Shown: positions 14,272 to 15,585 of the stretch, one piece after another | Numbering within the stretch: the stretch's first letter is position 1 | Layout of the letters: each line of letters begins with the position of its first letter | Source: Miltoncostaea oceani | Lineage (GTDB): Bacteria; Actinomycetota; Thermoleophilia; Miltoncostaeales; Miltoncostaeaceae | Reading direction: 5' to 3' | Assembly (NCBI RefSeq): GCF_018141545.1 | Contig: NZ_CP064356.1 | Coordinates: 868,001-932,000 of the forward strand | DNA: 64,000 nucleotides | Made by a program: the position numbers and the translations under genes | Notes under the pieces: generated by a model | Seen by the model: the letters and a program-made list of their open reading frames with translations, nothing else | What the model was told of the DNA's origin: nothing | The model's database searches: none

Positions 14272-14580
14272 ATGAACGTGACGACCGCAGCGAACGTCCT
14301 CGGACTCCCCACCGCCCGCGTCGAGCGCGACGCGCTGGTCGGGGCCTGGCGGCGCTTCGCCCGCGAGCACCACCCCGACCGCTGTCCCGGTGACGCAGGG
14401 GCGGCATGGCGGTTCGCCACCGGTCGGGAGGCCTTCGAGACGCTCATCGAGGGTGTCGTCGCCACGCAGGCCACGCCCGTCGCCCGCTACGGGAGCACGG
14501 GCGTGGTCCGCGCGCAGGACGCCGGGCGCGCGCTGCCGTACGAGATGCGCCCCCTGCACACCCGGGAGTGGCGGGCCTGA
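14272..14580 (+). CDS. Short J-domain-like protein
   Basis: A 102-residue protein whose residues about 5-45 match a J-domain: TTAANVLGLPTARVERDALV, then WRRFAREHHPDRCPGDAGAA with the HPD tripeptide that stimulates DnaK ATPase. The Gly/Phe and zinc-finger parts of DnaJ are absent. The remaining 50 residues are unrecognised. The ATG at 14272 is 7 bases after TACGGT (14259-14264), the leaderless arrangement seen repeatedly here. It ends 23 bases before the poly-C tract. Confidence 0.72.
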   Translation: MNVTTAANVLGLPTARVERDALVGAWRRFAREHHPDRCPGDAGAAWRFATGREAFETLIEGVVATQATPVARYGSTGVVRAQDAGRALPYEMRPLHTREWRA

Positions 14581-14601: not shown

Positions 14602-14657
<56 letters not shown>

Positions 14658-14671
14658 CGCGGCGTTCCACG

Positions 14672-14683
14672 TAGCCTTCGCGC
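14672..14683 (+). promoter_or_regulatory. Leaderless-type promoter of the class I amidotransferase gene
   Basis: TAGCCT (14672-14677) is a TANNNT -10 box followed by 6 bases and then ATC at 14684, the same spacing as at the leaderless ATG/GTG genes at 24493, 38473, 38799, 52087 (minus) and 52152. It begins 15 bases after the poly-C tract, so any length change in the tract would alter the DNA upstream of the promoter. Confidence 0.5.
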
Positions 14684-15448
14684 ATCGCCACCACCGCCGA
14701 CATCCCCGTCATCGGCGTCTGCGCCGCGATGGAGCGGGCGCGCTGGTCGGTCTGGGACCTGCCCGCCGCCCTGGTGCCCGTCAACTACCTCGAGCAGGTG
14801 CAGCGGGCCGGCGCGATCGCGCTGCTGATCCCGCCCGACGAGGCCGTCGCCGCCGACCCGGGCCGGGTCCTCGACCGCCTCGACGGGCTGATGCTCGTCG
14901 GCGGGGTGGACATCGCCGCGGAGGAGTACGGCGCGGAGCCCCACCCGCTGAACGACGCACCGATCCCCCTGCGCGACGCCGTCGAGACCGCGCTGGTGCG
15001 CGAGGCGATGGCGCGCGGGATGCCGGTGCTCGGCATCTGCCGCGGCGCCCAGGTCATCAACGTCGCCGCCGGCGGGACGCTGCGCCAGCACATCCCGGAG
15101 GAGCTCGGCACCGAGGAGCACCGCCGGGAGATCGGCCGCTTCGACGGCAACGAGCACGACGTGGAGCTGGTCGAGGGCTCGCGCGTCCACGGGGCCGTCG
15201 GCACGCGGGTGCACCGGGTGGCGTCCCACCACCACCAGGCGATCGGCGACGTCGGCCGCGGCCTGCGGGTCAGCGGTCGCGCCGTCGGCGACGGCGTGCC
15301 GGAGGCCGTCGAGGGCGACGGGCCGGCGTGGGTGCTGGGCGTGCAGTGGCACCCCGAGGCGGACCCCCGCAGCCCGGTGATCGGTGCGCTGGTGACGGCG
15401 GCCCGCGAGGGCCGGCGACGGGGCGCGGATCGAGAAGAAGGGGGCTGA
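14684..15448 (+). CDS. Gamma-glutamyl-gamma-aminobutyrate hydrolase family (PuuD-like) amidotransferase
   Basis: A class I glutamine amidotransferase-like hydrolase. The core shows LMLVGGVDIAAEEYG, the nucleophile elbow VLGICRGAQVINVAAGG and the His/Glu pair VQWHPEADPRSP. Family members open with P-V-I-G and then R-W-x-x-W-D. Here IPVIGVCAAMERARWSVWD matches, but it begins upstream of the first ATG (14729). An in-frame TAG at 14672 leaves no ATG, GTG or TTG before it. The best start is ATC at 14684, 6 bases after TAGCCT, giving 254 residues. If the ATG at 14729 were used, the first core strand would be lost. Members hydrolyse gamma-glutamyl amides; the substrate here is unknown. Confidence 0.8.
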   Translation: MATTADIPVIGVCAAMERARWSVWDLPAALVPVNYLEQVQRAGAIALLIPPDEAVAADPGRVLDRLDGLMLVGGVDIAAEEYGAEPHPLNDAPIPLRDAVETALVREAMARGMPVLGICRGAQVINVAAGGTLRQHIPEELGTEEHRREIGRFDGNEHDVELVEGSRVHGAVGTRVHRVASHHHQAIGDVGRGLRVSGRAVGDGVPEAVEGDGPAWVLGVQWHPEADPRSPVIGALVTAAREGRRRGADREEGG

Positions 15449-15460
15449 CTTCTCGATCCG
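15426..15460 (+). terminator. Hairpin overlapping the amidotransferase stop codon
   Basis: The 12-base arms 15426-15437 and 15449-15460 are perfectly complementary, with an 11-base loop that contains the TGA stop. A stem spanning the stop codon is a plausible terminator or 3' stability element. Confidence 0.55.
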
Positions 15461-15585
15461 AGCCGCTCGCCGTGACGAACGGAGCTGACCCGGTAGGCAG
15501 TGCACTCCACCCCGCTCGCACCCGCAGTCTCGACTCCCGGCCCGCCCCGTTCCTTGGCCGCCCGTCCAGTGTCTGCGTGGTCCGG
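15461..15585. other. Non-coding gap between convergent genes
   Basis: About 125 bases between the amidotransferase and the convergent PH-domain gene. Its composition is less biased than the coding DNA around it. No tRNA, reading frame with matching codon bias, or clear promoter was found on either strand. Confidence 0.5.

Follow-up and report, generated by a model that had tools for sequence, protein, structure and literature searches.

A putative leaderless AUC start codon in a PuuD-like hydrolase gene of Miltoncostaea oceani and its relatives

Introduction

Where does translation begin when a reading frame offers no canonical start codon ahead of the conserved part of its protein? This question is raised by a PuuD-like gene in contig C1 of the 4.54 Mb genome of Miltoncostaea oceani (G000), a member of the Miltoncostaeaceae (Thermoleophilia). 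It lies in the stretch of 64,000 nucleotides analysed here, which we call the window. The first-pass annotation had proposed that the gene starts with an ATC codon exactly 6 bases behind a TAGCCT box, that the family's first strand (IPVIGVC) is encoded upstream of the first ATG, that an in-frame TAG closes the frame further upstream and that the spacing is the one used by leaderless ATG and GTG genes of the window.

Such a start would be unusual. In Mycobacterium smegmatis leaderless translation depended on an ATG or GTG at +1, as determined by reporters and selection; ATC served as an initiation-incompetent negative control, and CTG and TTG were ineffective, according to the parts of that study considered here (PMC4633059). 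GUG works in some actinobacteria, and the recognition of such codons is called not known in the section consulted of a review (PMC9031893). A further source, used here as an excerpt, counts AUC among the rarely used start codons of bacteria at large (PMC9094748). No report of leaderless ATC genes was recognised in the literature searched, outside which most subscription journals lie. Non-canonical start codons were reportedly described by Baudet et al. in 2010 for Deinococcus deserti, a bacterium rich in leaderless mRNAs.

Results

Start region of the PuuD-like gene

Coordinates of the features are collected in Table 1. Direct reading of the sequence bore out the proposed arrangement. The first three bases of the box (14672–14674) double as an in-frame stop codon that closes the upstream frame, the spacer TCGCGC (14678–14683) separates the box from the ATC by six bases, and no ATG, GTG or TTG is found in frame between TAG 14672 and position 14729. 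Counted from the ATC, IPVIGVC corresponds to residues 7–13 and thus precedes the first methionine codon. Two AT-N codons are present in G000 from the in-frame stop to strand 1, ATC 14684 and ATC 14702, and only the former is conserved, since the 14702 codon is AGC in the congeneric genomes G001 and G003. A divergent minus-strand gene starting from the CAT that covers the ATC was also considered and rejected; its frame stops after four codons in G001, as judged by eye.

Table 1. Features of the PuuD-like locus (window coordinates) and of two further genes with apparent leaderless non-canonical starts
Feature	Position	Strand	Basis or sequence context
Poly-C tract of 53 bases, with 15 bases between it and the -10 box	14604..14656		sequence
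-10-like box TAGCCT (TANNNT)	14672..14677	+	direct sequence reading, kept in relatives
ATC, putative transcription start and start codon	14684..14686	+	sequence and orthologue comparison
PuuD-like / Peptidase_C26 glutamine amidotransferase-type hydrolase (predicted), 254 aa from ATC	14684..15448	+	Pfam PF07722
Strand 1, residues 9-13, lost with a start at 14729	14708..14722	+	AlphaFold2 model, alignment
First in-frame ATG, residue 16 counted from ATC, judged internal	14729..14731	+	sequence, Pfam, alignment, model
Cys119, predicted nucleophile	15038..15040	+	invariant in 28 aligned sequences
His223-Pro224-Glu225	15350..15358	+	invariant in 28 aligned sequences
MarR regulator, apparent leaderless ATC	L134:12017-12511 (G003:C1:2532016)		TAGCAT-N6-ATC
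guaA, apparent leaderless CTG	L285:5612-7189 (G000:C1:1065611)		TAACCT-N6-CTG

Leaderless spacing and the frequency of ATC

We scanned the window for ATG, GTG, TTG, CTG, ATC, ATT and ATA behind a box in open frames of 80 or more codons. Box-N6 was found before four ATG and two GTG codons, box-N7 before three ATG codons, and ATC occurred once, in the PuuD-like gene. The claim that N6 serves as a leaderless spacing therefore stands, with the small correction that N7 is also in use, within the window before ATG only. A larger count covered 1.84 Mb of G000 and G003 (about 20% of one genome and 27% of the other) and was limited to open frames of 70 or more codons that passed a codon-position filter and had an in-frame stop at most 30 codons upstream. 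Behind the box, ATG and GTG together numbered 3 at N5, 63 at N6, 29 at N7, 20 at N8 and 19 at N9. Broken down by codon, N6 comprised 32 ATG, 31 GTG, 4 ATC, 3 CTG and 1 ATA, with neither ATT nor TTG, and N7 comprised 11 ATG, 18 GTG and no ATC. The PuuD-like gene thus shows the -10-adjacent leaderless pattern, with a TANNNT box at a leaderless spacing of its genome. The copy in G003 falls outside this count, because its upstream stop lies about 52 codons away.

ATC showed no excess at N6 in the filtered 1.84 Mb, with 0, 4, 4 and 6 cases at N3, N6, N9 and N12, and neither did CTG, with 1, 3, 1 and 3 cases at the same spacings. Raw ATC counts in 520 kb of each of the two genomes gave no peak at N6 or N7 either. 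Codons other than ATG and GTG numbered 162, 103, 149 and 159 at N3, N6, N9 and N12 versus 36–65 at other spacings; they are raised there because a TAG or TAA box itself supplies the required stop. Since both filtered and raw counts lack an excess, ATC is at most a rare leaderless start in G000 and G003. We preferred the filtered count to counts of ortholog pairs (209, 269 and 246), which include wrong frames; the start-less pairs listed there are often wrong-frame or antisense, because such open frames are common at 75% G+C. Further candidates are ambiguous: ATC at N6 in G000 (1084206, GTG four codons on) and G003 (2673454, GTG at the next codon), CTG at N6 in G003 (2669000 and 2692320), and a MarR-like gene in G000 (607299, ATG ten codons on).

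Conservation of the ATC in orthologues

Comparison with orthologues supported the ATC reading. Within the genus, G001 has the box, spacing and codon of G000 (TAGCCT-N6-ATC) and G003 has TACGCT-N6-ATC; G002, the remaining genome of the genus and 86% complete, gave no match to the PuuD-like gene. Two more genera of the family keep the arrangement, G005 with TAGTCT-N6-ATC and G007 with TAGTCT-N7-ATC. G016, of the same genus as G005, carries TATGCT-N7-ATG, and ATG or GTG at box spacing is found in several other relatives.

In six of 96 distinct orthologues, codons -20 to -2 include no ATG, GTG or TTG. TANNNT-N6/7-ATC is present in five of them, and the sixth, L029 (44% identity), has no box. Among the other 91 orthologues ATC at box spacing was never found (0/91), ATG or GTG occurred in 45 and CTG in one, where an ATG follows. 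As the sequences are related, these counts do not represent independent events; a quick tree of 39 proteins, with SH-aLRT support only, requires no fewer than three switches between ATC and another start codon. The in-frame TAG inside the box bars an upstream in-frame start in three of the five ATC orthologues (G000, G001 and G005). The DNA of G001 would also allow a start at a GTG one codon ahead of the strand-1 Ile, a position that would leave the strand incomplete. To estimate how often the pattern arises by chance, we dinucleotide-shuffled the 70 bases preceding the strand-1 Ile in each of the five ATC orthologues: an in-frame box-N6/7-ATC was obtained in 4, 3, 2, 13 and 7 of 4000 shuffles per sequence.

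Protein fold and coding signal

The protein read from the ATC matches PF07722 over its full length (205.1 bits, cut-off 20.5), with residues 8–225 aligned to positions 1–219 of the 219-position profile. With a start at ATG 14729 the match shrinks by 12 profile positions and about 10 bits. An AlphaFold2 model computed on a 28-sequence alignment has a mean pLDDT of 90.0 and places strand 1 at residues 9–13; residues 1–3 are the sole segment of three or more residues below pLDDT 50. Ile10 is the same in all 28 orthologues of the alignment, and Pro8 and Gly11 are nearly invariant. The Cys and His-x-Glu motif of the Peptidase_C26 / class I glutamine amidotransferase families is present in 28/28 sequences (C119, H223, E225). 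By family we take Cys119 to be the catalytic nucleophile, and His223 and Glu225 presumably fill the catalytic roles of the motif. The closest solved structures, PuuD / SpuA gamma-glutamyl hydrolases and Lin1909 (PDB 6vtv, 7d4r, 7d50, 7d53, 3fij), share the fold, with query-normalised Foldseek TM-scores of 0.70–0.83 and 27–34% identity among the 14 best chains. We did not assign a substrate, because the score for the PuuD equivalog NF008471 (NCBIfam) is 79.8 bits, far under the cut-off of 266.

Codon changes were compared among G000, G001 and G003. In all, 269 third-position changes were counted versus 139 at first and 133 at second positions (762 codon comparisons). The codons from Pro8 to the ATG show 4, 0 and 4 changes at positions 1, 2 and 3 (24 comparisons), the tail codons from the ATC to Pro8 vary freely with 9, 8 and 4 (18 comparisons), and the bases upstream of the box have no codon rhythm, with 30/30/30 changes in 141. 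From the Pfam match, the alignment, the model and the codon changes, the coding frame very probably extends upstream of ATG 14729, as a near-invariant strand 1 precedes that methionine.

Neighbourhood of the gene

The run of 53 C directly upstream of the promoter covers the position where a -35 element would lie. Nowhere else in the 4.54 Mb genome, whichever strand is read, do 16 or more C follow one another. The run is absent from the 140 bases preceding the ATC in G001 and from the 200 preceding it in G003; it may vary in length, or it may have arisen in the assembly. The upstream neighbour (14272–14580) encodes a small J-domain-like protein, its DnaJ Pfam score of 26.3 bits being just under the cut-off of 27.8, and is apparently leaderless too (TACGGT-N7-ATG). 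Around the stop codon of the PuuD-like gene lies an inverted repeat of ten base pairs (15428–15458), whose arms differ in G001 and G003 and still look paired when the alignment is inspected by eye. Shortly 3' of the gene we noticed a conserved intergenic element with the core TGACCnGGTnGGCAGTGCACTCCACC (15480–15514). It occurs in 8 of 42 family genomes from three genera, gave no Rfam match at E up to 0.1 and is possibly a novel RNA or binding site.

Apparent non-canonical starts in MarR and guaA genes

Two further genes resemble the PuuD-like gene (Table 1). The MarR gene of G003 lacks ATG, GTG and TTG all the way from the upstream stop to the end of its first 20 codons. Its counterpart in G018, from another genus and 76% identical, carries TAGTCT-N6-ATC and no ATG, GTG or TTG within the 15 codons displayed. 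Of 20 MarR loci nine were inspected, with ATC at two, ATG or GTG 6–8 bases past the box at six and neither at one. The second gene, guaA, is expected to be needed for purine synthesis. In G000 its box contains the in-frame stop, and no ATG, GTG or TTG precedes the conserved GMP synthase N-terminus. Box-N6-CTG is also found at guaA of G001, G002 and, in another genus, G016; in G001 and G002 a GTG lies within the part shared with G000, four codons ahead of the reference point of the alignment. The gene of G003 shows TACACT-N8-TTG, and the remaining 25 of 30 loci have ATG or GTG with no box at N5–N8.

Support for both cases comes from the lack of an earlier start and from conservation, not from the spacing counts. 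The PuuD-like gene is probably not the sole case, with MarR (ATC, two genera) and guaA (CTG, four genomes) alike; being independent of it, the two genes point to a looser choice of the first codon on leaderless mRNAs in the family.

We also inspected the start of infC in four genomes. In G001 and G002 there is no ATG or GTG from the upstream stop to the conserved RINEAI, and a single TTG is present, about 17 codons ahead of this motif; the frame picked by script for G000 and G003 looks wrong.

Initiation machinery

Loss of IF3 was considered as a cause and rejected, IF3 being present in 38 of 42 family genomes including G000. A special AUC-reading initiator tRNA was likewise rejected, as the initiator-like tRNAs carry CAT when inspected by eye. 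An Rfam tRNA search of G000 gave 85 matches and, with C1:2894079 left out, is the source of the 87 distinct tRNA sequences, of which five have the anticodon CAT and three GAT. Since IF3 and a CAU initiator-like tRNA are both present, nothing points to IF3 loss or to an AUC-reading initiator.

The 815 kb contig C2 of G000 (L224, L225, L226, L227) holds 39 of the 85 tRNA matches, mostly in arrays at about 351–363 kb and 489–502 kb, and a second initiator-like CAU tRNA at 760 kb.

Discussion

We consider a leaderless mRNA with a 5'-terminal AUC as start codon the likely explanation for the PuuD-like gene, judging from sequence and its conservation. Transcription would be driven by a promoter of the gene's own, whose TANNNT -10 box is separated from the ATC by six bases. 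RNA polymerase would begin at the A of ATC 14684, so that the mRNA would have no leader, and the ribosome would initiate on the 5'-terminal AUC. Most likely the ordinary initiator tRNA (fMet, anticodon CAU) would be used, binding directly and pairing at the first two positions of the codon. The product would be a 254-residue PuuD-like hydrolase, its activity predicted from the family, in which a short, poorly ordered N-terminal tail leads into strand 1. As to why ATC is kept, we can offer guesses: the codon might hold synthesis at a low and steady level, or the fidelity of initiation might serve to regulate the gene.

G000, G001 and G003 all keep the ATG at 14729, where Leu codons are seen, on an informal view, in many other orthologues, and transcription from 14684 could be followed by translation from this ATG, giving a 45-base leader and a protein without strand 1. 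We regard this as improbable: by eye, the bases ahead of 14729 show nothing resembling a Shine-Dalgarno sequence, the nearly invariant strand 1 belongs to the confidently modelled core, and its codons upstream of the ATG look constrained. Entry of translation from an upstream ATG or GTG, in frame or through slippage, could draw on the poly-C tract, which may be slippage-prone, and on the frame of G003, which is open for about 52 codons upstream. A frameshift through the tract was rejected, however, because TAG 14672 lies between the tract and strand 1 and a ribosome slipping into the frame of the gene would still hit this stop. In-frame TAG codons of like kind in G001 and G005, and the tract not being seen upstream in G001 and G003, speak against upstream entry in general, and we think it very improbable.

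That an elongator tRNA-Ile reads the first codon, so that the protein begins with isoleucine, ranks slightly lower. AUC is an Ile codon, and according to the consulted section of the review (PMC9031893) leaderless mRNAs bind straight to 70S ribosomes. However, guaA has CTG at the corresponding place and would need a different tRNA, and by eye the three Ile (GAT) tRNAs all look unlike the CAU initiator. Least probable of all is decay of the gene after loss of its start codon, with the ATC left over by chance. Loss of the canonical start often accompanies decay, but third-position changes exceed those at the first and second positions among the three genomes of the genus, Cys119, His223 and Glu225 are invariant, and the ATC state recurs in other genera.

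A leaderless AUC start of the PuuD-like gene can be set beside two known systems. Mycobacterial leaderless genes are alike in having a -10 box directly before the ORF, a transcript that begins with the start codon and no Shine-Dalgarno sequence, as far as described in the parts considered of PMC4633059. The ATG/GTG rule given there differs from what we find at the PuuD-like gene, with ATC at 14684 and likewise in relatives. The -10 motif of Deinococcus-Thermus is also alike, a TANNNT about 6–7 bp before the start that drives leaderless mRNA; this is a different phylum, and the term ATC is absent from that text (PMC12340547).

Because mycobacteria needed ATG or GTG and ATC served as the negative control there (PMC4633059, in the parts considered), the family may follow a looser rule. 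We put the chances at about even that the Miltoncostaeaceae have a relaxed leaderless rule, with AUC and CUG used as 5'-terminal starts of several genes that are not related to one another, guaA among them. Gene prediction that allows only ATG, GTG and TTG would take the internal ATG as the start of the PuuD-like gene, at the cost of part of the fold, and would be unable to place the start of guaA in G000. If true, the relaxed rule would be the opposite of the ATG/GTG-only rule of mycobacteria. The family would then provide natural, conserved leaderless AUC and CUG starts, and the recognition of the first codon of a leaderless mRNA by the ribosome would become directly testable by reporter start swaps.
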